DNA from: Dehalococcoidales bacterium
GTDB lineage: Bacteria > Chloroflexota > Dehalococcoidia > Dehalococcoidales > UBA2162
Assembly: GCA_020343555.1 (NCBI GenBank)
Contig: CP070800.1
Span: forward strand, 1,967,505 to 1,984,770
Length of the DNA: 17,266 bases
Direction: 5' to 3'
In this document: positions 2,609 to 17,266 of the stretch, piece after piece
Numbering within the stretch: position 1 is the first letter of the stretch
How the letters are laid out: the number at the start of each line of letters is the position of its first letter
Notes under the pieces: model-generated
Seen by the model: the letters and a program-made list of their open reading frames with translations, nothing else
What the model was told of the DNA's origin: nothing
Database searches by the model: none
Translations under genes and position numbers: made by a program

Positions 2609-3478
2609 TTAACCCCTCATGAATTTCGTATAGGCTGAGTATACCTTTGACTCATCGAGATTTTCCATGAGTTTGGCTACCGGTATTTCGGCACCGAGTT
2701 CTTCCGCCATCTCTATTGCCAGCACCTGGTCTTTATTAATGAATTGAGGTGGAGGAGAATCGACGGTCGGAGGTGACGGAGGTGGCATTCCCCTCGTTCC
2801 GGATTCAAGCCTGGTTCTCATGCTGTTTGCCATCCAGCTGGCGCCGGTGCCTTCCTGCATCACGTCCAGCATTATCTTCATATCGAGACCGGCTTTCAGC
2901 CCGACATTCAGGCATTCATGTATCACTGTTCCCATGTTAAATGCAACCATGTTATTGACAAGCTTATATGCCTGACCGTTTCCTATCTGGCCTGCCCTGA
3001 AGACCTTTCTACCCATCGCTTCGAACACTGGCCAGCACATATCGATCACATCATCGTCGCCGCTTACCATCAGTGTAAACTGGCCTATTTCGTTGGTAGG
3101 AATGTTCTTGGTAACGCCTATGTCTATCACCCTGACGCCTTTTTCCTTGCCTTTTTCATACAATTCACGCGGGTAAGACGGTCCGATGGTGCTGGAGAGT
3201 ATGATAATGCTTCCCTCCTTTGCGCCTTTCCAGAGCCCGTCCGTACCGAAAACAACCTCTTCTGTCTGTGGTATGTCACGGACCATGCTGATTACGGCGT
3301 CACTTGTTTCCATTAACTCCCTGCAAGAACCGGCGGCTACGGCTCCTTCAGTCACTAACTTATCAACGGCTTCTTCATTGAGGTCGTATACCGTGAGAGG
3401 TATACCGGATTTCAGTATACTTCTTGCCATTACATTGCCGATGTCCCCTACTCCGACAAATCCCATTTTTACAGTCAT
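2609..3478 (-). CDS. NAD(P)-binding beta-hydroxyacid dehydrogenase (GarR/HIBADH superfamily)
   Basis: A 289-residue oxidoreductase of the 3-hydroxyisobutyrate/tartronate-semialdehyde reductase superfamily, which interconverts a beta-hydroxyacid and its semialdehyde with NAD(P). The Rossmann motif is GFVGVGDIGNVMA (6-18), ending in a D32 that suggests NAD. The catalytic lysine is K172 within GNGQAYKLVNN, and the late KD pair is K249-D250. Two departures are visible. The usual DAPVSGG substrate-carboxylate loop is replaced by DIGVTKNIPTNE (119-130), and a proline-rich stretch (PPPSPPTVDSPPP, 232-244) occupies the region before the KD motif. Substrate is therefore unlikely to be a standard one. 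It is the last gene of the leftward cupin/URO-D unit, 96 bp after URO-D paralogue 1, with a strong hairpin in that gap. Confidence 0.85.
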   Translation of the reverse strand: MTVKMGFVGVGDIGNVMARSILKSGIPLTVYDLNEEAVDKLVTEGAVAAGSCRELMETSDAVISMVRDIPQTEEVVFGTDGLWKGAKEGSIIILSSTIGPSYPRELYEKGKEKGVRVIDIGVTKNIPTNEIGQFTLMVSGDDDVIDMCWPVFEAMGRKVFRAGQIGNGQAYKLVNNMVAFNMGTVIHECLNVGLKAGLDMKIMLDVMQEGTGASWMANSMRTRLESGTRGMPPPSPPTVDSPPPQFINKDQVLAIEMAEELGAEIPVAKLMENLDESKVYSAYTKFMRG

Positions 3479-3516
3479 TGCACAGCTCCTTTCTCACTCA
3501 TTTAATTTTTCAGAGA

Positions 3517-3550
3517 AATTGAGAGTCCTGATGTTTCAGGACTCTCAATT
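3517..3550 (-). terminator. Perfect 15-bp hairpin between URO-D 1 and the dehydrogenase
   Basis: The arms AATTGAGAGTCCTGA (3517-3531) and TCAGGACTCTCAATT (3536-3550) are perfectly complementary with a 4-base loop. The hairpin starts 24 bases after the URO-D 1 stop on the minus strand. No convincing U-run follows on either strand, so a partial terminator, attenuator or mRNA processing/stability element inside the operon is more likely than a full terminator. Confidence 0.6.
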
Positions 3551-3574
3551 GGCAAAACTTGATATCACCGGCAG

Positions 3575-4828
3575 CTAATTATATACGCCGTATTCCTTGG
3601 TATAGTCGATCATCGCATGAAGATTTTCCGGTTTTGCGAAATCGGGTACGACCCTGGGACACATGACATAGCCGCCGTCCTTACCGACGTAATCTATCAG
3701 CTTCTTAACATGGGCTTTCACTTCATCGACGGTACCGGCTGTAAGCAATGAACCGGGGAAATTACCCCTGATACACATATGCCCTTTCAGTACGTCCTTT
3801 GCCCGGAAAATATCCGTGGAGTCGAAATGAGCCATGATCTTGCCCTTCGGCAGCTCGAGAAGATATTCGAGACGGGTCGTCCAGTCTCCTTCGAAGAAGA
3901 TACAGGGGATGATGCCCTTATCGATGGCGGCAAGGTAAATCTTCTTTAATCCGGGCCAGTAAAATTCCTCGAACTGCTTTTTCGACATGAATCCGTCCGA
4001 ACCCCTGTGCGTAGCCATAAAGCTTCTCTTGTGGTGTTCACGATACGGCATGGCTTCGATTCGCCTCAGACTTCTCTCAAGGAAATAATCGATGAGTTCA
4101 TGAAGTTTATCCGGCTGGCGGTACATGTCCATCATCGTCCCCGGCATTCCCCGGAAACCGTTCATGACCTGATCGTAGGGTGCACCACCGGCACCCATAC
4201 CGCCTACGGGGAAACCGAGTTCTTCCACCGCTGCGTTTACGTCCGGCAGGCTTTTTCTCCATTCGGCCACTTCGCGGCCAACTTCCTGCAAGGTAGCTAT
4301 TGAAGTGGCAAGATCGGGCCTGGCTAAGGCTTCAGCGATCATCATTGCACCCATCTGTCCCCTTCCTGCATCGGAAAGATCCGGGAAATTTTCCCAGGCT
4401 TCCATAGAACCGACAGTCCTCGGCATCAGATACCTGAGCGTGAAGTTGGTAGAATCTTTCATAACCAGGTCGTACTCGTCCGCCATCATGAATTCGCCTT
4501 CGATTGCCTGGTTGCCGGTGTTTTCGGGTACTCCGTGTCCCGGCCATCTCTGTGTCTTGGGATCAAGTTTCTCAAGGGCTTTACCCGGTTGCAATCCCTG
4601 GATGTAGAACAGGGAATCAGGTTGGAAGTCCACCACTGTCTTCTTAACCGCTTCCAGCCACTTCTGCGGCTCATAATAGACAATGGAGAATGGCTGGTTG
4701 GTATACTTCGCCGGGAAATAACCGAAAGACATATCGATCGGCACGCGATCCGGTATCCTCAATTCGATTGTATCAGCAAGCCTTTGATCTCTTTCCTTAT
4801 ACAGTTCTTCGGGTGATTTTTCTGCCAT
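3575..4828 (-). CDS. URO-D-fold protein, paralogue 1 (methyltransferase-like family)
   Basis: A 417-residue soluble protein of the uroporphyrinogen decarboxylase superfamily, which includes HemE and the methylcobamide:thiol methyltransferases. Visible family features are IPDRVP (25-30) at the N-terminus, HRGSDGFMSKKQFEEFYWP (274-292), FFEGDWTTRLEYL (311-323), AHFDSTDIFRAKDVL (334-348) and the GYVM segment (387-390). In methyltransferase members a His-x-Cys pair sits before the conserved Gly of the barrel strand; here the position reads IFFEG, so the zinc thiolate appears missing, although Cys390 remains. Neither haem synthesis nor standard zinc-dependent methyl transfer is well supported. It is 74 bp downstream of its close paralogue and preceded by GGAGGT. 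The reaction is unknown. Confidence 0.85.
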   Translation of the reverse strand: MAEKSPEELYKERDQRLADTIELRIPDRVPIDMSFGYFPAKYTNQPFSIVYYEPQKWLEAVKKTVVDFQPDSLFYIQGLQPGKALEKLDPKTQRWPGHGVPENTGNQAIEGEFMMADEYDLVMKDSTNFTLRYLMPRTVGSMEAWENFPDLSDAGRGQMGAMMIAEALARPDLATSIATLQEVGREVAEWRKSLPDVNAAVEELGFPVGGMGAGGAPYDQVMNGFRGMPGTMMDMYRQPDKLHELIDYFLERSLRRIEAMPYREHHKRSFMATHRGSDGFMSKKQFEEFYWPGLKKIYLAAIDKGIIPCIFFEGDWTTRLEYLLELPKGKIMAHFDSTDIFRAKDVLKGHMCIRGNFPGSLLTAGTVDEVKAHVKKLIDYVGKDGGYVMCPRVVPDFAKPENLHAMIDYTKEYGVYN

Positions 4829-4902
4829 ATACTGCTACCTCCACATGCACATTTTACTAGCTAACTTTACTAAAGGCGGTAACATCCGTCAAATGGATTT
4901 CC

Positions 4903-6155
4903 CTACCTGTAAACACCATATTCCTTGGTAAATTCCACCATGGTTTTTATATTCTCAGGTTTTGCTTTATCGATGGAACTTCCGGCTGTCAGGATATATC
5001 CGCCGTCCTTACCGATATTGTCAATCAGTTTCCTGCAGCAGTTTTTCACGTCATCCGGCGTACCGGTCTGCAATATCGATGCCGGGACGTTTCCCATGAT
5101 CGCCGTATGACCTTTAAGAATTTCCTTTGCCTTGTAGATATCCGTAAGGTCGAGACGGGCGACACTTTTCCTACCGGCAGTTCCAGGAGGTACTGGATTC
5201 TCGTTGTCCAGTCGCCTTCGCAGAATATCAGAGGTGTCATTCCGGCATCTATCACGGCAAGAAGAACCTTTTTCAGAGTGGGCCAGTAAAACTTCTCAAA
5301 CTGCTTCACGGACATGAAACCGTCCGAGCCACGGTGCATCCCCATGAACAGAAGTTGAGGACATTCTTTATCTACCTTGACTGTCGGAATCCCTCTTTTT
5401 ATCCTGTCTTCCAGTATCTTGTCGCATGCTTCCAAAAGCTTATCGGGCTGGCGGAACATGTCCTTCATCGTTCCCTGCATTCCCCTGAGAAAATCGGATA
5501 TCGAATCAAAAGGCGCCTGTGCCGTGCCGGGGTAGAACCTTGGATATCCCAGATTATCTATCTCTTCACCGAACGACCGCATTTTATCTCGCCATTTCAG
5601 CTGGACCTGCCCGATTTCCTGGAGTGTATCAATTGAAGCAGCAACCTCGGGATCCGCAAGCGCTTCTGCCAGGGAGAGTGCTCCTCGAAAACTGAAACCC
5701 AGAGAAGAAAGTTGCGGAAGTTTACTGAACGCTTCCATTGCCCCGCAGACGCGGGGGAGATGCTTACGCATAACGAAATCGGAAGTATCTTCCATGAGGT
5801 CATCGTATTCGTCAGCTTTCATAGCTTCAAGTTCAAGGTACTGGTGCGAGTCATTGGATGAGACACCGTGTCCCGGCCACCTTAGTGGTTTAGGATCTAA
5901 CAATTCGAGGGCTTCACCAGGCGAAAACGCGGTAACGTGCACGAGATCCGGATCGAAATCGGTTATTGTCTTGATATTGGCTTTCAGCCAGTTACCGTAA
6001 TCGTAAAACGCAGCTTCGAATGTCAGTCCTGTGTACCAGGCGGGGAAGTAACTTAACTCCAGCATTACCGGCACTCGGTCCGGTATCTGCAGCCTGACAG
6101 TATCGCCGAGTCTCTTTCCTTTTTCCCTGTAACGCTGTTCAGGAGTAATACTCAT
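4903..6155 (-). pseudogene. URO-D-fold protein, paralogue 2, interrupted by a one-base frameshift
   Basis: This gene parallels paralogue 1 along its whole length (IPDRVPV at 24-30, RWPGHGV at 92-98, HRGSDGFMSVKQFEKFYWP at 274-292, FCEGDWTTR at 311-319). The frame is broken near 5157-5162: after residue 332 (ELPVGKVS) the upstream frame runs into unrelated sequence ending at 5046. The other frame resumes as RLDLTDIYKAKEIL and continues to the stop at 4903-4905 (EYGVYR). Adding one base restores exactly 417 residues, the length of paralogue 1. This may be a recent mutation or a sequencing error in a GCCC run. Position 313 is Glu as in paralogue 1, Cys312 is next to it, and the late cysteine of paralogue 1 is absent. 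It lies 46 bp after the cupin gene, in the same operon. Confidence 0.85.
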
Positions 6156-6201
6156 GTTCCATTTCCTTAATAAGTTATGTTAAGTATTGTATTATCCGGG
6201 A

Positions 6202-6717
6202 CTATTGTGGTCTGCCCTCGAGAGAGGCAGCTTCCTGCCGCTGGGTGCTGGGATCGAACGGACTGCATGACACTACTACGAATACACAGGATCTTTTCAC
6301 GTTTTTCCATGTCATTGGAAAATGTGCGAGTCCTGCCGGGACGAAGATACAAGCCGAGGTATTTATCTCGATCTTCTCAAGTTCGTCATCTTCTCCCAGC
6401 CAGAACTCCACGTCTGCTCCAAGGTCTTCGATATCATTTGGATTTGTCCCCATGAAGAGGAACATTTCATCGAAATCGTCATGTTTGTGGGGCGCCAAGC
6501 CGCCGTCGCTACCGGTACCTACCGTAAAATCACCCGAAATTATCCCGGATTCCAGACCCGTTATCGCACTCGGAATAATCTCCTTTCCGACCCATACCAG
6601 TGGTCCGGTATCAACCTTACCTTCAAGGTCGATCTTATCAGGTATTTCAAGGTGTCCGCCCTGGCTGATAATAGCCGGTTTTCTGATCACGTATTGTGAA
6701 TACCTGGATTTTGCCAT
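6202..6717 (-). CDS. Cupin-domain protein, first gene of the leftward operon
   Basis: A 171-residue single-domain cupin. The start MAKSRYSQYVI matches the MAxxxYxKYI opening of the cupins encoded at 7838-10232. The first cupin motif is HKHDDFDEMFLFMGT with probable metal ligands His77, His79 and Glu84. The second is CIFVPAGLAHFPM with His132. Between them is DLGADVEFWLGEDDELEKIEI, a block shared with the plus-strand cupins. Enzymatic cupins with three His and one Glu usually bind Fe, Mn, Ni or Zn; the substrate here cannot be inferred. The start is set by AAGGAGGAA (6725-6733). The leftward operon begins here, under a predicted promoter whose spacer holds a 21-bp dyad. The C-terminal tail (about 150-171) lacks conserved features. 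Confidence 0.85.
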   Translation of the reverse strand: MAKSRYSQYVIRKPAIISQGGHLEIPDKIDLEGKVDTGPLVWVGKEIIPSAITGLESGIISGDFTVGTGSDGGLAPHKHDDFDEMFLFMGTNPNDIEDLGADVEFWLGEDDELEKIEINTSACIFVPAGLAHFPMTWKNVKRSCVFVVVSCSPFDPSTQRQEAASLEGRPQ

Positions 6718-6750
6718 ATATAAGTTCCTCCTTCATCAATTTAAGAACAT

Positions 6751-6779
6751 AATTTACCGGATGATACTCATCCGGTCAG
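6751..6779 (-). promoter_or_regulatory. Predicted promoter with internal 21-bp dyad operator for the cupin/URO-D operon
   Basis: On the minus strand, CTGACC (6774-6779) and TAAATT (6751-6756) are separated by 17 bp, each matching consensus at 4/6. The dyad of ACCGGATGA (6756-6764) and TCATCCGGT (6768-6776), with a 3-bp centre, fills the spacer almost exactly. This is a classical repressor position. The dyad is certain; the promoter and its regulator are inferred. Confidence 0.5.
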
Positions 6780-6841
6780 GATATTAATAATACCAGAAAC
6801 CGACGTTATTAGATACATCAATCCCGACTAGATACCGGTAA

Positions 6842-6870
6842 TTGACTAAAGATTTAGTAATAAATATATG
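6842..6870 (+). promoter_or_regulatory. Predicted promoter for the methyltransferase gene
   Basis: TTGACT (6842-6847) and TATATG (6865-6870) are separated by 17 bp. Transcription would start near 6877, which rules out the ATG at 6876 as the start codon and supports the start at 6954. Confidence 0.5.
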
Positions 6871-6910
6871 ATAGAATGTCAGATATTTATGTGAAGAATA
6901 CAAAACAAAT

Positions 6911-6934
6911 GGAAGAACTATATGTAGTTCTTCC
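6911..6934 (+). repeat. Perfect 10-bp inverted repeat in the methyltransferase leader
   Basis: The arms GGAAGAACTA (6911-6920) and TAGTTCTTCC (6925-6934) pair perfectly around a 4-base loop. A G-U pair and two A-U pairs can extend the stem to 13. It lies between the predicted transcription start and the GAGGAG ribosome binding site near 6942. It may be an operator, a stabilising 5' hairpin or part of an attenuator. Confidence 0.65.
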
Positions 6935-6953
6935 GTTGTTAGAGGAGTACGAA

Positions 6954-7592
6954 ATGAATAAAGATGAAAGATTCTGGGACAAACAAGCTAAAGATTTTAT
7001 CAATCATGAAGAGCATACTCAACTGGACAAAAATAAAGATTTCATCACCACATTAAAGTATCTCGATAAAGATGATACGGTGCTTGATTATGGTTGTGCT
7101 ACAGGTATCATCTCTAATGCGATTTCAGATAGAGTGAAGGAAATTCATGCTATCGACATTTCCTCGAAAATGATAGAAATGGCCAGGAATAAAGCTGAAA
7201 AGATGCGTATCGATAACATTAATTACGCCCATGCAACGATATTTGATGAAAGATTTAATGATGAGTCATTCAACATAATCCTGGCTTTTAGAATCCTGCA
7301 CATGTTGGATGATATAGATATGGTAGTATCTCGGATTCATAGTTTGTTAAAACCGGGAGGAACCTTCATATCAGTCAGTGCCTGCATGGGCGACAAGAGA
7401 TCCCTTTTGAGTATAATCGTGTATCTCGCCAGTAAACTAAAAATTGTCCCCCAGCATATCAATTTGTTTAAACTCCCGGAATTGCAGTCAATCATCACTA
7501 ATGCTGGTTTTCATATCATAGAATATGAAAAAATGGATGACAATGTACCGCATTATTGTATTGTTGCGCGAAAGATGCCTGATAAAACTTGA
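6954..7592 (+). CDS. Class I SAM-dependent methyltransferase
   Basis: A 212-residue Rossmann-fold methyltransferase. Motif I is VLDYGCATG (43-51), motif II ends in the acidic residue of AIDIS (66-70), motif IV/V includes FNIILAFRILHMLDD (106-120), and LLKPGGTFIS (131-140) is the usual post-motif strand. This places it with UbiE/UbiG-like small-molecule methyltransferases; the acceptor is unknown. The start at 6954 was chosen over the ATG at 6876 because GAGGAG precedes it at good spacing and the upstream stretch holds the promoter and hairpin. The gene is visibly more A+T-rich and lysine/isoleucine-rich than the flanking cupin and URO-D genes, so it may have a separate origin. It stands alone between two divergent units. 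Confidence 0.85.
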   Translation: MNKDERFWDKQAKDFINHEEHTQLDKNKDFITTLKYLDKDDTVLDYGCATGIISNAISDRVKEIHAIDISSKMIEMARNKAEKMRIDNINYAHATIFDERFNDESFNIILAFRILHMLDDIDMVVSRIHSLLKPGGTFISVSACMGDKRSLLSIIVYLASKLKIVPQHINLFKLPELQSIITNAGFHIIEYEKMDDNVPHYCIVARKMPDKT

Positions 7593-7752
7593 ATTACAAT
7601 GACTCACGTATACTATGCCAGTTCAGTCTTCCTGCTTTCCATTGTATTATTCTAACCCTCTTAAGTGCCCTTTCAATTCCTTACTCGCAAATTTCTGTCA
7701 TACCATCCGTTGACATGAGTGTTCGGGCTGTACTCCTTTCCCTTCATATGGG

Positions 7753-7781
7753 TTGAACTGTCAATATTAAGTCATTATGAT
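7753..7781 (+). promoter_or_regulatory. Predicted promoter of the cupin array
   Basis: TTGAAC (7753-7758) and TATGAT (7776-7781) are separated by 17 bp, with a likely start near 7788 and a leader of about 50 nt to the cupin gene at 7838. The rest of the 7593-7837 gap shows no gene or clear terminator. Confidence 0.5.
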
Positions 7782-7837
7782 GAGTGCAGTTATTTACTAA
7801 CCCACGGTAATGATTTCATTTGTGAAAGGAGTTTCGG

Positions 7838-8803
7838 ATGGCTGAATTGAGGTATGCGAAGAACATAATCACTGATACCAGGGAATATACTCCTGAAGAA
7901 ATGGCCAAGATAGAAGAAATGCGGGAGAAAAGTCCCATAGATTCGACCGTGGAAGGAATGCGGTTACTCTGGATGGATGATGAAAAGGTAGAAGGGGCGG
8001 AATTCTACATGGAATGCCTGTGGTTGTGGGAAGGTGTGACCACGTCAGGTACCTCCGAAGAACCTCACCACCATGATTTTACCGAGGTTATCGGTTTTAT
8101 CGGCACCGACCAGGATAATCCCGGTGAACTGGATTCCAGGATGGAAATTATCCTCGGGGACGAGACACATTATCTGACGAAAAGTTGTCTTGTTCATGTG
8201 CCACCCGGCATGAAGCACTGCCCGTTAACATTTCGTGAGGTCAATCGACCGACTTTCTTCTTCACCCTTGCCCCGATAAGCCGGTACGGTCGGACTTCCG
8301 AGTCTGCCGAACTTAAGGAAGGACAGTCCAAAGAACCTTTCTTCCCAGCTCCAGAACCTGATTCATCCGGAACAAGGTACGAGCGATTCATCGTCACCGA
8401 TCCGAAACCGCACTGGGATCCTGAAAAGCCTCCTCCTCCGCCGCCACAACCGAGAACGGCAAAATCCAATCAGATCGTATCTCTGGATGATGAAGCTTCA
8501 CCAGGTGGATTCTATGTTGATTTCGTTTGGATATGGAGCGGAGACATGACGATGTCGTCGGAACCTCATTCGCATGATTTCGACGAGATGATAGGTATAA
8601 TCGGTTTCTGTGGAAAAGATGACCCTCGGAAGGTTGATGGCGACGTCTCCATTGTTCTCGGGGATGAAACACACATCATCGACCAAAGTTCACTTATTTA
8701 TATACCGAAAGGACTGGACCACTGTCCTATCGAGTTCAAGAACATAAATCAACCGGTGCTGTGCTTTACCATCGGTAATACTCCCAAATGGGAGAAACAG
8801 TAG
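7838..8803 (+). CDS. Two-domain (bicupin) protein
   Basis: A 321-residue protein with two cupin domains joined by a proline-rich linker (about 165-207, including a run of prolines at 198-203). Domain 1 has HHHDFTEVIGFIGT with His77/His78/His79 and Glu83, then VPPGMKHCPL with His127. Domain 2 has HSHDFDEMIGIIGF with His244, His246 and Glu250, then IPKGLDHCPI with His295. Both metal sites therefore appear complete. Each domain resembles the single-domain cupins nearby more than a generic cupin, pointing to duplication and fusion within this family. Ribosome binding site GGAG precedes the ATG at 7838. It is the first of four co-directional cupin genes. The substrate is unknown; bicupins elsewhere include dioxygenases, decarboxylases and isomerases. 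Confidence 0.88.
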   Translation: MAELRYAKNIITDTREYTPEEMAKIEEMREKSPIDSTVEGMRLLWMDDEKVEGAEFYMECLWLWEGVTTSGTSEEPHHHDFTEVIGFIGTDQDNPGELDSRMEIILGDETHYLTKSCLVHVPPGMKHCPLTFREVNRPTFFFTLAPISRYGRTSESAELKEGQSKEPFFPAPEPDSSGTRYERFIVTDPKPHWDPEKPPPPPPQPRTAKSNQIVSLDDEASPGGFYVDFVWIWSGDMTMSSEPHSHDFDEMIGIIGFCGKDDPRKVDGDVSIVLGDETHIIDQSSLIYIPKGLDHCPIEFKNINQPVLCFTIGNTPKWEKQ

Positions 8804-8838
8804 CCAGATATCATGTTTATAAACGGAGAGGAAGGAAA

Positions 8839-9258
8839 ATGAAAGAAAAGAAAGAAGTCGACAAATATATTCTCGCCCCAGAAATAAAACAGTACGGCGA
8901 CCTGCAGGTATTTGAATTTCATGGGAAAGACGCACGTGGATATGATTTCGGCGTTCAACTTACTCCTGTCCAGGCATTGCCGCTAATAAACGAACCTCCT
9001 AAAGTAGTAGATGCCGACCGCGTTAATATGTATGCAGGCGGAGATCATGAAAAGATCGATGAGTTAAATACCGAGATTGAGATTTCTATGGGCGAAGAAT
9101 CGGAACAATATACAATAGATTCAGCAGCAATGACCTATGTCCCCAAAGACGTTCCTTATGGTCACCGCGTCACCGGAAGTACAGATAAAGCATCCTGGGT
9201 GCTGACTCTCACTCTCCCACCAAAATACGTTCCTCCGGATAAAACCGGCAGCGAGTAA
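8839..9258 (+). CDS. Cupin-like protein lacking the first metal motif
   Basis: A 139-residue member of the local cupin family. It keeps the opening VDKYILAPE, the mid-domain block ELNTEIEISMGEESEQYTID (75-94) and a second motif YVPKDVPYGH ending in His109. The first motif is degenerate: where the others have HxHDFxE this one reads VVDADRVNMYAGG (57-69), with no histidine pair or glutamate. Metal binding in the usual way is unlikely, so a structural or regulatory partner of the active cupins is possible (inference). The start at 8839 was preferred over an ATG at 8788 inside the bicupin gene because GAGAGGAAGG lies just upstream and the protein then aligns with the neighbours. The gap to the bicupin is 35 bp. 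Confidence 0.75.
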   Translation: MKEKKEVDKYILAPEIKQYGDLQVFEFHGKDARGYDFGVQLTPVQALPLINEPPKVVDADRVNMYAGGDHEKIDELNTEIEISMGEESEQYTIDSAAMTYVPKDVPYGHRVTGSTDKASWVLTLTLPPKYVPPDKTGSE

Positions 9259-9298
9259 TACCCGGGGTATACAACGATTATAATTAATGGAGAAAATG

Positions 9299-9733
9299 AT
9301 GGCAGATAATAAATATGGAAAATATATTTTAAGAGATGTAAAGAAGCCCTGGCCGTCATTTGGGGCTATGAACAGTGATTTTCTCGGCGGAAACCAGGAA
9401 TTCATGAAAGAGATAGAAGGTGCCAGACCGAATTTTGCTCTTTATTACGTCGTCAGGGCTGGTATGTTCGCTGAACCTCCGCATTCACACTACGCCGATG
9501 AATATCTCATGTTTTTTGGCACTGATCCCCATGACATGAAAAATCTTGGGGCAACGGTTGAGGTAGCATTTGGAGAGGAGTGGGAAAAAGCTGAATTCTC
9601 AACCTCGGCGATGGTATATTTCCCTAAAGGCCTCCAGCATTGCCCGATACACGTAAAGAAGATGGACAGACCGTTTCTGTTCGGTCATTTCTGGCCGATG
9701 GGAGAGGATCCTGTACTTGTGCCGGCGGAATAA
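9299..9733 (+). CDS. Single-domain cupin protein
   Basis: A 144-residue cupin opening with MADNKYGKYILRD, in register with the MAxxxYxKYI start of its neighbours. Motif 1 is PHSHYADEYLMFFGT with His62, His64 and Glu68; motif 2 is YFPKGLQHCPI with His114. Between them lies NLGATVEVAFGEEWEKAEF, the shared mid block. Three candidate ATGs lie at 9287, 9296 and 9299. GGAG at 9290-9293 suits only 9299, and that choice matches the paralogue N-terminus. The gap from the previous gene is 40 bp. The conserved HDF of the other members is changed to HYA here, so its site may differ. Confidence 0.82.
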   Translation: MADNKYGKYILRDVKKPWPSFGAMNSDFLGGNQEFMKEIEGARPNFALYYVVRAGMFAEPPHSHYADEYLMFFGTDPHDMKNLGATVEVAFGEEWEKAEFSTSAMVYFPKGLQHCPIHVKKMDRPFLFGHFWPMGEDPVLVPAE

Positions 9734-9755
9734 AAAGAAACAGGGAGAAGCGGTA

Positions 9756-10232
9756 ATGGCAGAAAAAAAGTATCAAAAGTATATATTGACCGAACCGGAT
9801 AAAGATTACCTGGCATCGTTGAAACCTCCCAAAAGTATCGAGGAACAGAGGAAATCCGGTAATTATTTCGAGGGAGTCTATATGTTCCACCTGGATGACA
9901 AGATACTCCCCGGAGGTTTCTATACCGACTGTCACTGGATCACTGCCGTGCATGGTAACGGGGGCGTTCAGACTGAGATAGCCCACACACATGATTTTGG
10001 TGAAACACTCGGTTTTGTCGGTTCGGTTCTCAGTGATCCGCGTGAACTGGGTGGCGAAATAGAATTCTGGCTTGAAGATGAGCAGTACGTTATCGATAAA
10101 AGCTGCCTGATATTCGTACCGGCTGGAATGAAACATTTACCCCTGGTTTTCCGCAGAGTGGACAGCCCGATTTTTTTCTGGACGGCAAGTGACAGCAAGA
10201 CTTACGGGAGGACGTCTGGTAACGAATTCTAG
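9756..10232 (+). CDS. Single-domain cupin protein, last of the array
   Basis: A 158-residue cupin starting MAEKKYQKYILTEPDK. It has a longer N-terminal region (about 15-70, including PGGFYTDCHWITA) that resembles the lead-in to domain 2 of the bicupin (PGGFYVDFVWIWS). Motif 1 is HTHDFGETLGFVGS with His77, His79 and Glu83. Motif 2 is FVPAGMKHLPL with His127. GREIEFWL-type mid block and IDKSCL also match bicupin domain 1. Start 9756 was chosen over 9717, which overlaps the preceding gene, because GGGAG lies upstream and the N-terminus fits the family. The gap from the previous gene is 22 bp, consistent with one operon. Confidence 0.85.
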   Translation: MAEKKYQKYILTEPDKDYLASLKPPKSIEEQRKSGNYFEGVYMFHLDDKILPGGFYTDCHWITAVHGNGGVQTEIAHTHDFGETLGFVGSVLSDPRELGGEIEFWLEDEQYVIDKSCLIFVPAGMKHLPLVFRRVDSPIFFWTASDSKTYGRTSGNEF

Positions 10233-10675: not shown

Positions 10676-12535
10676 ATGACAAAAAAATTAGTTTGGTTAT
10701 TGGCCAGCTGCCTTATGGTCATATCACTCCTAATCGCATCTTGCGGTGAGACAGAATCCACAGGAACGGTAACAACCCAGGGTGAAGGGCAGACCGTGAC
10801 TGTGGGTGGCGGTGAAGAGGATGATGTCAGTACCGGACCTGGAACAGCGACCACGGTCGGCGAAGAGCAAAACAGGCCGCAATATGGCGGCAGGCTTACT
10901 TTTCCTGTCATTACTGCTCCTTCCGCATGGAATCCCGGTGCGGTTGTCGGTACAGGTGCCGGACAGTCAGCGATTGTTCTCGAGCAGATTTTTGGTCGTA
11001 ATTGGGCAGAAGGTGCGGCAGGTTCCGGAAAATATAACTTCGTCGGCGGTGTACCTGAGTGGGGTGCCGTTGGCGGTAACCTGGTCGAGAGCTGGGAAAT
11101 TCTAGGTATTGGCATCTGGAAACTTCACGTACGCCAGGGAGTTCATTTTGCTTATCATCCGGAATTCGAAGCTTCCAAGCTGGTGGGCGGACGCGAGATG
11201 ACGGCTGAGGACGTTGCCTACAGCATCGAGTGGATGAGGGATACCGAGTCTTCAGCCGGTATGATGAGTGAACCAGCCCTCTTTTCGAATGCCACTGTTG
11301 AACGTAATGACCAATGGACGATTACACTAAACACACCGGTCAACCCGACCACGGGATACCTGTGGATGCTGGGTGGTGGTGGTGTCCAGTATGTCTGGGC
11401 AAAAGAGCATCTTGATAACTACGCAGAAAGTAACGAGTGGTACGACACGGTCGGTACCGGTCCATATATCACGGACGATTACGTAACCGATGTGTCGATC
11501 AAGTACATCAGGAACGACAATTACTGGGATGTCAATCCCGTTGGTCCTGGTCAAGGGGATCAGCTGCCCTACATCGATTCGATCAACTACCAGATAATAC
11601 CCGACACATCGACGAGGATGGCGGCATTCCGAACAGGTAAACTCGATGTCTTTGGGTTTGGGATGGATCTGAACGCTGAAGAGTACGCACAATTACTAAA
11701 GACAAATCCTGAAGTGGAGTCCGTCGAGGTAATAATGGACCCGATGAAGCTCTGTGGCAGGGTCGACTTACCGGAAGATCCTTACTCGAACCTGAAAGTA
11801 CGCCGGGCGATAATGCTGGCAATTGATCATCCGTCGATCGTCAACGACTTCTATGAGGGTAAGGCGGAACTGCTGGATACTCCGGCGCGAAAGTGGTACC
11901 CGAGTATTTATACACCACTGGAAGAATATTCACCCGAGGTACAGGAGTACTACGGATACAATGTTGAAAAAGCGAAGCAGTTGATGGCTGAGGCCGGGTA
12001 TCCGGATGGCTTCAAGAAGAAAGTTGTCTTTGTTAATAATCCAGCTTCCGAAGAAGCCTCGGCGATACTGAAGGCATACCTGGCAGAAATCGGTATCGAG
12101 CTTGACTTGCAGCCGTTGGAAAGCGGCATATTCATGGGCATGTTCTGGGGAGGAGATATCCAGGACTGGATCATTAATAACTGGCCTGGAGGAAACGGAG
12201 CATTCTTCGTCAGGTACAGCATGGGTTACTTCAGAGGACCGAATGTATTCAACACGGCTCATGTTAACAATCCGATAGGGAGTGAACCGGTAATCGAAAA
12301 GGCTTTCGAGGAACAGGCTGCGGCGGTCATGGTTGATTATCCGAAAGCTGACGAAGTAACCAAGGCGGCCTATAAATATTGTGTCGAACAGGCATACCTA
12401 ATCCCGATGCCGGCGCCGTATGGATACAGGGTCTGGCAGCCCTGGTTGAAGAACTACTACGGTACGAATGATATGAAGTTCTGGCTGAGATGGGCCTGGC
12501 TAGACCAGGATCTCAAAGAGGAGATGACCAGGTAA
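10676..12535 (+). CDS. Family-5 ABC transporter substrate-binding lipoprotein 1
   Basis: A 619-residue extracellular solute-binding protein of the SBP_bac_5 (DppA/OppA/NikA) family, which delivers peptides, nickel or other solutes to an ABC permease. The signal peptide is MTKKLVWLLASCLMVISLLI with lipobox IASC, giving lipidated Cys23. A low-complexity acidic Thr/Gly/Glu linker (24-66) follows. The body starts at PQYGGRL, the usual entry to this family. It also has REMTAEDVAYSIEWMRD (about 173-189), GTGPYI, and RRAIMLAIDHPSIV (about 377-390). Length is normal to slightly long. The start is set by GAGGAGG. No permease or ATPase gene is adjacent, so the transporter must be elsewhere or shared. 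Its ligand is unknown. A strong terminator follows 25 bp after the stop. Confidence 0.93.
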   Translation: MTKKLVWLLASCLMVISLLIASCGETESTGTVTTQGEGQTVTVGGGEEDDVSTGPGTATTVGEEQNRPQYGGRLTFPVITAPSAWNPGAVVGTGAGQSAIVLEQIFGRNWAEGAAGSGKYNFVGGVPEWGAVGGNLVESWEILGIGIWKLHVRQGVHFAYHPEFEASKLVGGREMTAEDVAYSIEWMRDTESSAGMMSEPALFSNATVERNDQWTITLNTPVNPTTGYLWMLGGGGVQYVWAKEHLDNYAESNEWYDTVGTGPYITDDYVTDVSIKYIRNDNYWDVNPVGPGQGDQLPYIDSINYQIIPDTSTRMAAFRTGKLDVFGFGMDLNAEEYAQLLKTNPEVESVEVIMDPMKLCGRVDLPEDPYSNLKVRRAIMLAIDHPSIVNDFYEGKAELLDTPARKWYPSIYTPLEEYSPEVQEYYGYNVEKAKQLMAEAGYPDGFKKKVVFVNNPASEEASAILKAYLAEIGIELDLQPLESGIFMGMFWGGDIQDWIINNWPGGNGAFFVRYSMGYFRGPNVFNTAHVNNPIGSEPVIEKAFEEQAAAVMVDYPKADEVTKAAYKYCVEQAYLIPMPAPYGYRVWQPWLKNYYGTNDMKFWLRWAWLDQDLKEEMTR

Positions 12536-12634: not shown

Positions 12635-12704
12635 TCTCTCGTTCTCTGATTTTTAAATATTTAATTTCAGGTACGGTGTATCTACAAATCCCTTGGAGGT
12701 TTTA

Positions 12705-13556
12705 ATGAAGCTTGAAGGTAAAATAGCAGCGGTTACAGGAGGAGGAGCGGGAATAGGTGAGGGCATTGTCAAATGCCTGGCAGAAGAAGGAGCTGATATC
12801 GCGGTAATAGATATCACCAGCGAAAATGCTGAAAAAGTATCTTCGGATGTTCAGGCAATGGGCCGCCGGTCACTGGCAGTTATTGCCAATGTAACGGAAA
12901 AAGACCAGGCTGATTATGCTTTAAAACAAATACTGGATTCGTTCGGAAGGATAGATATCCTCGTAAATAATGTTGGTGGGGAGTCAAAATATTATTACGA
13001 GGAACCGGGAGTAGATTACTCTGAAGAAAAGGAGTGGGATGATACCATCAGGTTGAACCTGAGAGCTGCAATGCTGATGACCAGGGCTGTAACTCCTCTT
13101 TTTATAAATCAGAAAAGCGGCAAGATCGTGAACATATCCTCTATAGGTGGAAGACCTATGTCTGGAGGCCCACCTGCAAGTGGAGGAATGTCGGGAAAGG
13201 GAGCCGCACTTTCTCCAATGACAAGTTATGGGGTTGCTAAAGCAGGGGTAATCCAGTTTTCACGGTTAATGGCATTACAGCTGGCGCCGTATAATATCAA
13301 TGTAAATTGTGTCTGCCCTGGAGTCCTGTATACACCTTTGTATGAAAGAAGCGCGCCAAGGCGTATTCAATCGACACCCGGAGCGGAAGGTCTATCGTAT
13401 CGGGAATATTTTGACAAATATGTGGCTTCACGAGTACCACTAGGGAGAGAACAAACTCCAGAGGATATCGGGAGGGCTGTGGTCTTTCTTACTTCAGAGG
13501 AAGCGAGGAATATTACAGGTCAGTCAATCAATGTAGATGGAGGATTGACACCATAA
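12705..13556 (+). CDS. Short-chain dehydrogenase/reductase (SDR) with an insertion before the catalytic tyrosine
   Basis: A 283-residue classical SDR that would oxidise a secondary alcohol or reduce a ketone with NAD(H). The cofactor loop is TGGGAGIGEG (11-20), and Asp36 after the second strand points to NAD rather than NADP. NNVGG is at 88-92. The catalytic set is Asn118, Ser145 (or Ser146), Tyr175 and Lys179 (YGVAK). The Ser-Tyr distance is about 30 residues instead of the usual 13, because of a glycine/serine-rich insert (153-170, GGPPASGGMSGKGAALS). The C-terminus GQSINVDGG is standard. Start 12705 is preferred over the TTG at 12693, which lies within the ribosome binding site region (GGAGG at 12695-12699). 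The ThDP enzyme follows 61 bp later, so the two are probably co-transcribed. Confidence 0.88.
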   Translation: MKLEGKIAAVTGGGAGIGEGIVKCLAEEGADIAVIDITSENAEKVSSDVQAMGRRSLAVIANVTEKDQADYALKQILDSFGRIDILVNNVGGESKYYYEEPGVDYSEEKEWDDTIRLNLRAAMLMTRAVTPLFINQKSGKIVNISSIGGRPMSGGPPASGGMSGKGAALSPMTSYGVAKAGVIQFSRLMALQLAPYNINVNCVCPGVLYTPLYERSAPRRIQSTPGAEGLSYREYFDKYVASRVPLGREQTPEDIGRAVVFLTSEEARNITGQSINVDGGLTP

Positions 13557-13617: not shown

Positions 13618-15333
13618 ATGGAACAATACACTGGAGCAGAAGCATTCCTGGAAATCTGCAATGCGAACGGTATTGAGAATATTTTCTTTAATCCGGGTGG
13701 AGAATTTGCATCGATAAATGCTGCTGTATTGAAGTATTATGCGCTTGGTAAACCTGCTCCGAAACTGAGCGTCTGTCTGCACGAATCCGTAGCACTAACA
13801 GCTGCTTACGGTCATTATATGGTATCGGGTAAACCGCAGGTAGTCCTGGTACACAGCGAACTTGGAACTCAGCAGGTAGCTGGAGCTCTTCACAATGCAC
13901 AGTGGGGAAGAATACCGGTAGTTTTGATGGCTGGGATTGCTGCTGCCCCCAGCAGAACCAACTGGAAGGGTGAACCGTATTACCAGGGATTGATGACTCG
14001 AAACAGCGTGAAATGGGATTACGAGATAAAACCGGACGAGGATATACACGAGATACTTCAGAAAGCAATCAATATATCTCTAAGCGAACCTCGCGGCCCG
14101 GTGTACCTTTCCTACACGAGAGATATTTTGATGAAGAGAATCGACAGGCGTGAGTTCGACTCATATAAGGGAACTGTCGAACCGCTTCCACCGGCAAATC
14201 CCGACGACCTGTCGAAAATTTCCGATTATCTACTGGCGGCAGAAAATCCGCTTATTGTGGCAGGATACGTTGAAAGACACCACGCATCGGTTGGGAAACT
14301 AATTGAACTTGCAGAAATCCTTTGCGTTCCGGTCGTTCCAGGATTAACGCGGATGAATTTCCCCACCACGCATCCGTTATGTGCAGGGATGGAGGAAATG
14401 GGTGGTGGGATCAGGGGTAACGAACCTTTCGCAGAAGCTGATGTTGTTCTGGCTATCGATTATGATACACCTTACGTACCGGCTAACATATTCCCGAAAG
14501 AAGATGCAACCATCCTTCATATCGATATTGATCCGATGACACAGGGAAGACCGCTATGGGGTCGCGGTGCGGATGTTTTCGTGAAAGCTGATTCCAGGGA
14601 AGCGATACCTTCTCTGACCGAGATTATTAAAGATAAGATGACACCAGAACTTAAGACCAGACTCCAGGCACGCTACGAGATGGTTGAAGAAAAGTACAGA
14701 AAGCAGCGCGAGGAGAACCGGATAACGGCAAAAAGCAAATCATCTGAAAAACCGATCTCACCCGACTGGTTGGGATACTGCTTAAATGAGATCATAGATG
14801 AGGATACCGTGCTCGTGAACCACCTTATCAGCCAGTCATCTTCGGTAGCGGCGCAGGTTGACCGAGTAAAACCGGGGACTCTGTGCTCGTGTGCCGGCGG
14901 TTCGATTATGTGGGCTCTAGGTGCAGCCCTGGGAGTAAAAACAGCAGTCCCTGACAAAACGGTTGTCAGTGTCATGACAGATGGTGGATTCGTCTGGGGT
15001 TGCCCGATTGCTTCTCTCTGGACTTCCAATGCTTATAAAGTACCCTTCCTGTCAGTTGTTTTCAACAATCAGTCATACGGGGCTATTCGTACGATAGTAG
15101 AACGGCTTTCAGAGACTCCCATGTCCGAAGAAATGGGATATATATCCGGTCTCGATATCTCTCCTCCTCCGGATTATGCCTTAATAGCAGAATCCTGCGG
15201 CGGTTACGGTAAGATAGTAACCGAGCCTGAGGACGTTCTACCTGTTCTGAAAGAAGCTCTCAAACGGGTGAAAAGCGGCAAACTGGCTGTAGTTGATATC
15301 AGGTTGGAGTTGGGTTTGGCGGGAGTATTGTAG
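13618..15333 (+). CDS. ThDP-dependent enzyme of the acetolactate synthase/benzoylformate decarboxylase superfamily
   Basis: A 571-residue thiamine diphosphate enzyme with the usual three domains. The N-terminal pyrimidine-binding domain (about 1-175) carries the catalytic glutamate in CLHESVALTAAYG (Glu56). A central domain spans about 195-340. The C-terminal diphosphate-binding domain (about 380-560) has VMTDGGFVWGCP with Asp455, and Asn483-Asn484 about 28 residues later, the ThDP-Mg motif. The first residue of the usual GDG is Thr here (TDGG). Candidates are a lyase, a decarboxylase or an acyloin-forming synthase acting on a 2-oxoacid-like substrate. Glyoxylate carboligase is unlikely because it lacks the catalytic Glu. 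It follows the SDR gene, which could reduce a hydroxyketone product (inference). A GGGGGAAAGG site precedes the ATG. Confidence 0.88.
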   Translation: MEQYTGAEAFLEICNANGIENIFFNPGGEFASINAAVLKYYALGKPAPKLSVCLHESVALTAAYGHYMVSGKPQVVLVHSELGTQQVAGALHNAQWGRIPVVLMAGIAAAPSRTNWKGEPYYQGLMTRNSVKWDYEIKPDEDIHEILQKAINISLSEPRGPVYLSYTRDILMKRIDRREFDSYKGTVEPLPPANPDDLSKISDYLLAAENPLIVAGYVERHHASVGKLIELAEILCVPVVPGLTRMNFPTTHPLCAGMEEMGGGIRGNEPFAEADVVLAIDYDTPYVPANIFPKEDATILHIDIDPMTQGRPLWGRGADVFVKADSREAIPSLTEIIKDKMTPELKTRLQARYEMVEEKYRKQREENRITAKSKSSEKPISPDWLGYCLNEIIDEDTVLVNHLISQSSSVAAQVDRVKPGTLCSCAGGSIMWALGAALGVKTAVPDKTVVSVMTDGGFVWGCPIASLWTSNAYKVPFLSVVFNNQSYGAIRTIVERLSETPMSEEMGYISGLDISPPPDYALIAESCGGYGKIVTEPEDVLPVLKEALKRVKSGKLAVVDIRLELGLAGVL

Positions 15334-15889: not shown

Positions 15890-17266
15890 ATGACAAAGAA
15901 AATAGTTTGGTTTATTGTGAGTTGCCTTATGGTAGTTACCCTTGTGTTGGCTTCGTGTGCCGAAGAAACTGATACTGGCGGAACTGTCACTACCACGGAT
16001 GAAGGGCAGACTGTAACGGTAGGAAGTGATGATGAAACAAGAGAAGAACCAGGGAAACCTTCGGTTATGGTTGATCCTGACAAACCCAGGTACGGGGGTA
16101 GGTTGGTAATCCTTGCCGGATCAGATATATCGAACTGGAACGTAGCTTCCGGAGCTTGCCAGTGGCCTTCCCAGGGCGGTTATGTAATTGAGCAGATCCT
16201 GGGTATTCAAAGAGAGAAGGGTTTGGCTGGAACGGGTGAGACTGATTATTCCCAGGGTGTAACTGATTATACCTTCCTTGGCGGTCACCTTGCCGAGAGT
16301 TGGGAAACTCCTGCTGTAGGTGTCTGGGTACTCAATATCCGTCAGGGTGTACACTGGGCTTTGGATCCGGAATTTGAGGCTTCAAGGCTGGTCGGTGGAC
16401 GCGAGATGACAGCAGAGGATGTTGCCTATAGTATTGAGTACATGAGAGATACACCATTAACCTGTACCAACTGTAATGAACCTGCCTTGATTCAAAATGT
16501 TATTGTTGAGAGAACAGGACCATGGCAGATCACGGTAAATACACCGGTGGCTGCCGGTACCGGATATCTGTGGATAATGGGTGGCGGTGGCGCCCAATAT
16601 GTTTGGGCGAAGGACTTCCTGGATGCTGGTTACGGCGAAAGCAACAACTGGTATGACACTGTCGGTACCGGTCCCTATATACTAAAAGACTATGTTACGT
16701 CCAGTGCTGCTAAGTATGTCAGGAACGATAACTACTGGGAAGTGAATCCGGTTGGTCCCGGAATGGGAGATCAGCTTCCCTACATAGAGAGTATAGGCTA
16801 CCAGATAATCCCCGACCAGTCGACAAGACATGCCGCTCTTAGAACAGGCAGAGCTGACTGGTCAGCCGTCGATACACTGACTATTGAAGACTTTGGTACT
16901 CTGATAGGATCAAACCCAGAGATAGAGTATGTCGAGACAATCACTCCACCGATGCAGATTTCCGGAAGGGTGGATCTTGACGGACCTTATTCTGACGTAA
17001 GAGTCAGGAAAGCAATGATGCTTGCCATCGACCATCCGACGATCGTCAGAGACCTGTATGACGGTAAAGCCGAGTTGATAGACAGTCCGGCAAGGAAGTG
17101 GTATGACACTATCCACACGCCGCTCGAAGAACTGCCAGCTGAAACACAGGAGCTTTACGGATACTATCCGGAAAAAGCAAAGCAGCTGCTGGCAGAAGCC
17201 GGATACCCCGATGGTTTCAAGATCAAAGTGAACATGCAGAACAACCCAACGTCAGAGGCGGCTGGA
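15890..17266 (+). CDS. Family-5 ABC transporter substrate-binding lipoprotein 2, 3' end off window
   Basis: A second SBP_bac_5 lipoprotein; 459 residues are visible and the frame stays open to the edge. The signal peptide MTKKIVWFIVSCLMVVTLVL and lipobox LASC give lipidated Cys23. The acidic linker (24-66) retains GTVTT and EGQTVTVG from paralogue 1. The body matches paralogue 1 closely (PRYGGRL, EFEASRLVGGREMTAEDVAYSIEYMRD, DTVGTGPYI, ARKWYDTIHTPLEE, AGYPDGFK), so the pair arose by duplication. It differs by a CTNC pair (Cys192, Cys195) where paralogue 1 has AGMM and by substitutions in ALRTGRADWSAVDTL, so the bound solute may differ. ACGAGGAGGAAAAGCTTAT precedes the ATG, nearly as in paralogue 1. 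Confidence 0.93.
   Translation, partial: MTKKIVWFIVSCLMVVTLVLASCAEETDTGGTVTTTDEGQTVTVGSDDETREEPGKPSVMVDPDKPRYGGRLVILAGSDISNWNVASGACQWPSQGGYVIEQILGIQREKGLAGTGETDYSQGVTDYTFLGGHLAESWETPAVGVWVLNIRQGVHWALDPEFEASRLVGGREMTAEDVAYSIEYMRDTPLTCTNCNEPALIQNVIVERTGPWQITVNTPVAAGTGYLWIMGGGGAQYVWAKDFLDAGYGESNNWYDTVGTGPYILKDYVTSSAAKYVRNDNYWEVNPVGPGMGDQLPYIESIGYQIIPDQSTRHAALRTGRADWSAVDTLTIEDFGTLIGSNPEIEYVETITPPMQISGRVDLDGPYSDVRVRKAMMLAIDHPTIVRDLYDGKAELIDSPARKWYDTIHTPLEELPAETQELYGYYPEKAKQLLAEAGYPDGFKIKVNMQNNPTSEAAG

Follow-up and report, generated by a model that had tools for sequence, protein, structure and literature searches.

A recurring module of cupins and CdmB/MtoB-like URO-D proteins in Dehalococcoidales bacteria

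Introduction

What would a bacterium do with six cupin domains encoded beside two URO-D-fold proteins? The question is raised by a 17,266-nucleotide stretch of a Dehalococcoidales genome (GenBank assembly GCA_020343555.1, contig CP070800.1, positions 1,967,505 to 1,984,770; hereafter the window). An earlier sequence-only reading had noticed, at positions 2609-10232, six cupin domains spread over five genes, along with two URO-D-fold genes and one for a beta-hydroxyacid dehydrogenase, and all of them are present. We find that this module is real and recurs in related genomes. Its two URO-D proteins appear better described, from their sequences, as relatives of corrinoid-dependent type-I methyltransferases (MTIs) than as accessory parts of another enzyme. 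They probably work like the known corrinoid methyltransferase systems without being encoded like them.

Results

Sixteen open reading frames (ORFs) of the window were scanned for domain families. URO-D1 (3575-4828, minus strand, 417 residues) passes PF01208 with 65.2 bits against a cut-off of 23.9. Its paralogue URO-D2 (5046-6155, minus strand) barely passes, with 24.8 bits, because a one-base deletion puts its last part out of frame relative to L001, a related locus in the Dehalococcoidia metagenome-assembled genome (MAG) W403 (genome G001). The counterpart of URO-D2 in L001 (6045-7298) is intact with 417 residues; URO-D2 is about 50% identical to URO-D1 of L001. The DNA beyond the frameshift can still be aligned with L001 in the compared part (down to position 5000), thus the frameshift is either recent or a sequencing error. 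The sole strong PDB relative of URO-D1 is CdmB (9rui), with an E-value of 6.1e-37, while the next match has an E-value of 0.1. The similarity covers two stretches, residues 10-78 and 163-415 of URO-D1. Two other identities were rejected: URO-D1 reaches 23.7 bits on TIGR01464 for the haem-pathway decarboxylase HemE (cut-off 302.95) and 17.2 bits on TIGR01463 for the MtaA/CmuA methyltransferases (cut-off 235.4).

According to the main text of the Cdm paper, CdmB is the corrinoid-dependent methyltransferase for chloromethane in the CdmBCA system of Acetobacterium dehalogenans, and it groups with the O-demethylases MtoB, MtvB, OdmB and VdmB (PMC13222342). CdmB is a URO-D-fold protein of about the same length as URO-D1. 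Unlike URO-D1, it is encoded with a corrinoid protein (CdmC) and a type-II methyltransferase (MTII; CdmA); the window lacks both and contains cupins and a solute-binding protein of the SBP_5 type. The methoxy-aromatic O-demethylase MtoB1/MtoB2-MtoC-MtoA-MtoD of Methermicoccus resembles the module in having two adjoining MTI paralogues with putative transporters alongside, but the corrinoid protein, the MTII and the activase are within the Mto operon and the suspected Mto importers are of the MFS type (main text of PMC8630106). Cupins are mentioned in the main text of neither paper, nor does that of the Cdm paper contain any Dehalococcoid- name.

We built a FastTree tree, rooted at the midpoint, from those URO-D cluster members in the collected loci that were 350 residues or longer (97 sequences, reduced to 79 unique ones by dropping 18 duplicates). 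Both URO-Ds of the window belong to clade A, which has 33 members and a support of 1.0; the other group (clade B) has 46. A gene counted as a neighbour if it was no more than 4 kb and four genes away, a rule by which URO-Ds deep inside a long array may be scored without the corrinoid gene of that array (L131, L132). A corrinoid-system gene (corrinoid protein, MTII or the activase RACo) was near only 2 of the 33 clade-A members, both in locus L102, versus 38 of the 46 others. A cupin was near 14 of the 33 and 5 of the 46, respectively. Because some loci had been found via cupins, we recounted the URO-D-retrieved loci only. The corrinoid contrast remained very strong (2/28 in clade A vs. 34/40 in the others, Fisher P = 6e-11) and the cupin contrast was moderate (9/28 vs. 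3/40, Fisher P = 0.02), although these P values are optimistic because the members are related. In this recount, the three clade-B cases with a cupin all depend on a single 92-residue cupin ORF in L133. As background, 13.6% of control positions have a cupin no more than 4 kb away, a rough figure taken from 40 contig-start stretches of the same genome group (366 kb in total; 4 of the stretches contain the 7 cupin ORFs). Clade A is above this background (P = 0.009) and clade B is not.

Several loci outside the window illustrate the two kinds of surroundings. In L132:15-11193, seven CdmB-like URO-Ds stand in tandem, accompanied by a single corrinoid protein and a single pterin-binding MTII, and similar arrays occur in L131, L133 and L135; in the L132-type array, one corrinoid protein looks as if it serves many substrate-specific methyltransferases. 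Relatives of URO-D1 adjoin RACo in L134 and L139. UbiD genes adjoin clade-A URO-Ds in L116, L118 and L119, a thin hint of aromatic acids. In L118:1-4733 and L116:7872-14000, the clade-A URO-D adjoins both a UbiD decarboxylase and a molybdopterin oxidoreductase, and L118 also has two cupins.

Five cupin genes accompany the URO-Ds. CupA (6202-6717, minus strand) has one domain with the ligands HKHDDFDE and a later His. On the plus strand, CupB (7838-8803) has two domains, both with complete metal-ligand sets; CupC (within 8788-9258, its start perhaps at 8839) has none of the ligands; CupD (within 9287-9733) carries HSHYADE; and CupE (9756-10232, the likely ATG of an ORF running from a TTG at 9717) carries HTHDFGE. 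Five of the six domains have the full three-His-one-Glu set, HxH(3-4)E followed by a further His, which CupC lacks. Because the ligands are also absent from CupC of L001 and of L002 (genome G002), making three genomes in all, CupC is regarded as a retained ligand-less protein, not a fresh wreck. The N-terminus MAxxxYxKYI, noted earlier as a mark of the family, fits CupA, CupB, CupD and CupE well and CupC loosely.

The cupins match no NCBIfam family and no Pfam family above its cut-off. With Pfam Cupin_2, CupB scores 21 bits and CupE 16 bits, both below the 27.2-bit gathering score, and CupA, CupC and CupD give no match. The AlphaFold2 models of CupB and CupE are cupin barrels (double-stranded beta-helix) with mean pLDDT of 92.9 and 93.1. 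Phmmer joins CupB with CupE (5e-55) and with CupD (6e-22), CupA with CupD (2.5e-13), and CupC with CupD only (2e-6); judged by sequence, CupA, CupC and CupD are cupin domains. CupE has 217 relatives at E ≤ 0.001, and the alignment of this family gave no significant match among PDB sequences (best E = 0.44). The nearest folds of the CupE model are the epimerase MarH and the lyase DddK. The named bicupins oxalate decarboxylase, BacB, KduI, IolB and quercetinase share 11-13% identity with these proteins. In L001 (10001-10477), the CupE match spans 158 residues and the open frame has only 118, so CupE of that locus seems to be interrupted.

The minus-strand set consists of a HIBADH-like dehydrogenase gene, URO-D1, URO-D2 and CupA; the plus strand carries an S-adenosylmethionine (SAM)-dependent methyltransferase gene, CupB to CupE, and genes for an importer protein, a short-chain dehydrogenase/reductase (SDR) and a thiamine diphosphate (ThDP) enzyme. 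The cupins had been described as flanking the URO-Ds. Cupins do occur on both strands; the URO-Ds, however, are not between the cupin groups and lie to one side, with CupA and the dehydrogenase. L001 has the same gene order at 82-96% identity (URO-D1 96%, CupA 95%, CupD 93%), except that CupE is followed by an additional SBP_5 gene and the SAM methyltransferase is missing. L016 and L042 contain the same kinds of genes. In one Dehalococcoidales MAG, a 152-kb contig carries relatives of URO-D1, CupB and CupE under neighbouring locus tags (JW712_01630, 01620 and 01605). The proposal of one system thus agrees with the recurrence of the gene set as one module. L042 is a second locus of genome G001 and has a clade-B URO-D, cupins, a bicupin, an SBP_5 protein and an SDR, a parallel module of like composition. 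L002 has cupins and an importer, with no URO-D on its 10.5-kb contig; its CupC-CupD and CupE-CupB pairs are separated by importer genes.

We kept 80 cupin loci out of 124 confirmed genome-contig stretches, and 7 of the 80 hold this URO-D family within about 10 kb. The sequence-only reading had stated that cupin homologues found mostly without URO-D neighbours would speak against it; this is what we see for the family at large and not for this module. The association with URO-D characterises a sub-branch of the cupin family; the neighbours of the family at large also include SDRs, old-yellow-enzyme-type oxidoreductases, aldehyde ferredoxin oxidoreductases, SnoaL proteins and branched-chain-type importers. 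Among 156 genomes of the order of G001, cupins were found in 32 and the URO-D (E of 1e-30 or better) in 47, tallies used for presence only since per-genome counts there are lower bounds. The URO-D is present in 30 of the 32 cupin-bearing genomes versus 17 of the 124 others, a contrast inflated by shared ancestry. The cupin family is patchy, occurring in 4 of 197 genomes of a class-wide sample and in 1 of 12 in the family of G001; that G001 stands alone there may reflect a mixed bin. Thirteen of 15 genomes counted singly have 31-66 cupin matching places, and the other two have 3 and 15. The expansion is extreme in G308, G005, G306, G300 and others, with genomes of 1.5-3.3 Mb. G001 has 41 matches to URO-D1, the highest count. 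Of 19 genomes searched for corrinoid-protein domains (PF02607), 18 encode them; for RACo the figure is 12 of 16.

The divergent beta-hydroxyacid dehydrogenase of the earlier reading is borne out by the HIBADH-like (3-hydroxyisobutyrate-type) gene at 2609-3478 (minus strand, 289 residues; PF03446 125.6 bits, PF14833 51 bits), which has the same place in L001 with 88% identity. On the plus strand, an SBP_bac_5 solute-binding protein of a peptide/nickel-type ABC importer is encoded at 10676-12535 (PF00496 174.9 bits; 82% identity with L001), and its PDB relatives are haem-, dipeptide- and agrocinopine-binding proteins. It is followed by the SDR at 12693-13556 (PF13561 182 bits; PDB relatives FabG and BbsD) and by the benzoylformate-decarboxylase-like ThDP enzyme at 13618-15333 (NF006203 475.5 bits, cut-off 456; PDB benzoylformate decarboxylase 4e-39), both kept in L001. 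A second SBP_bac_5 gene (15890-17266, plus strand; PF00496 154.8 bits) is truncated by the end of the window.

The SAM methyltransferase gene (6876-7592, plus strand) lies within roughly 1 kb of DNA that L001 does not have; we dropped it from the module, and it is probably not a part of it. It matches the corrinoid-associated methyltransferase CpaM weakly (62.8 bits, cut-off 180). Between this gene and CupA, upstream of the latter, is a perfect 9-bp palindrome with a 3-nt spacer (6756-6776), which may be an operator or a hairpin; it scores terminator-like on the minus strand, and among 140 loci its core has an exact match in L001 alone (7898-7916). The nuoF fragment, nuoE and LuxR-type gene at the start of the window, before the minus-strand set, were not found in the 3.6 kb of L001 on that side, where other genes lie, and were therefore treated as mere neighbours.

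Discussion

The reading that we favor, with somewhat less than even confidence, is a catabolic module in which cupin-linked MTIs of the MtoB/CdmB kind remove a methyl group from an imported compound, using a corrinoid protein encoded elsewhere, followed by non-oxidative steps of the cupins. The SBP_5-type ABC importer would take up a methylated, most likely methoxylated and possibly aromatic, organic compound. URO-D1 and URO-D2 would move its methyl group onto Co(I) of a corrinoid protein, which would be supplied in trans together with a tetrahydrofolate methyltransferase and an activase, probably from the array loci elsewhere in the genome. The cupins, predicted to bind metal in five of six domains with CupC as a metal-free subunit, would then convert the demethylated product as an isomerase, lyase or decarboxylase. 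A non-oxidative step is proposed because of the presumed anaerobic lifestyle and the MarH and DddK folds nearest to CupE. The SDR, the ThDP enzyme and the beta-hydroxyacid dehydrogenase could finish the breakdown. Here we infer the substrate, the supply of corrinoid in trans, the order of steps, the cupin chemistry and any heteromer. Phloroglucinol-type ring cleavage was considered due to the SDR and dropped, the main text of the pathway paper (PMC10470551) containing no cupins.

Several observations weigh against demethylation by this module. None of the 16 scanned ORFs has a corrinoid-protein, MTII or RACo domain; without such partner genes alongside, we therefore claim that the URO-Ds work like a Cdm or Mto system, not that they are one. 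The supply in trans is weakened by G002, which has no PF02607 match, and by the 4 of 16 genomes with no RACo match, although these are draft MAGs; moreover, RACo and PF02607 serve other corrinoid enzymes too. The link to cupins is modest: the nine clade-A cases among 28 represent eight loci, four of which (L110-L113) are one syntenic group, and the bicupins beside clade A are of two unrelated types with 20-21% identity. The fold matches of the cupins are generic, mostly at 10-16% identity, and UbiD neighbours are confined to 3 of the 33 clade-A and 1 of the 46 clade-B members. Finally, CdmB, the nearest characterised enzyme whose structure has been solved, acts on haloalkanes rather than on methoxy aromatics, so more than one substrate class may apply.

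The scarcity of corrinoid-system genes around clade A would also be expected if its URO-Ds had abandoned corrinoid chemistry for another reaction, such as decarboxylation or hydration, on the substrate of the cupins. Differences between the clades such as M228/T and R275/K, among several such positions, fit this idea as well. Nevertheless, 45 positions are at least 90% conserved in both clade A and the corrinoid-linked clade (URO-D2 judged without its out-of-frame end), two clade-A proteins are no farther from CdmB (130.7 and 144.3 bits) than a clade-B protein (134.3 bits), and nearly all searched genomes still encode corrinoid-protein domains, so we consider this loss unlikely, though a serious rival. 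Chance is another explanation: both families are so expanded that they may meet without any functional link, the window being one such meeting inherited by descent. The dozens of cupin places and up to 41 URO-D matches per genome, the 13.6% background and the few URO-D-bearing cupin loci all speak for it. Against it are the position of clade A, but not clade B, above that background, the divergent URO-D/cupin layouts in several contexts, and the enrichment of the URO-D in cupin-bearing genomes, even if shared ancestry inflates it; on balance we think a chance meeting rather unlikely.

The sequence-only reading had suggested one system, possibly a multi-subunit metal enzyme; in the form considered here, the cupins would make up one metalloenzyme, to which the URO-Ds would be accessory. 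That six diverged domains are kept together, and that CupC is conserved without ligands in three loci, would suit such an enzyme, yet importer genes split the cupin pairs in L002 and many homologous cupins stand singly or in other arrays, which makes it distinctly improbable in our judgement. Still less probable is a CdmB-like dehalogenation of methanes carrying chlorine or bromine. There are organohalide respirers in the wider host group, and CdmB is the only strong PDB relative of URO-D1. However, it is hard to see why so small a molecule as a haloalkane should require an SBP_5 importer, an SDR, a ThDP enzyme and cupins; the clade-B protein matches CdmB equally well, thus CdmB similarity alone does not fix the substrate; and O-demethylases are close relatives of CdmB in the main text of PMC13222342. 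We give hardly any credence to the cupin complex as a direct partner replacing the corrinoid protein in clade A, whereby metal cupins would either bind the methylated substrate in an activated state or take over its methyl group. This would be a corrinoid-free or corrinoid-sharing demethylation unlike any described, with many expanded Dehalococcoidales copies.

Literature searches on cupins or demethylation in Dehalococcoidia, Dehalococcoidales and Chloroflexi/Chloroflexota, and on cupins in corrinoid clusters, in which subscription journals were thinly covered, gave no report joining cupins with URO-D; the earlier remark that no described pathway is known to have this composition therefore stands within that coverage.

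Anoxic sediments and aquifers commonly harbour Dehalococcoidales-type bacteria and, to our knowledge, the diet of the members that do not dehalogenate is poorly known. Many of the examined genomes contain dozens of cupins and up to 41 CdmB-like URO-D matches. If the clade-A/cupin module does demethylate, this would point to methylated organic matter as their food, with named genes to test. If instead these URO-Ds have lost their corrinoid partner, they would be an example of an enzyme class turned to another use.

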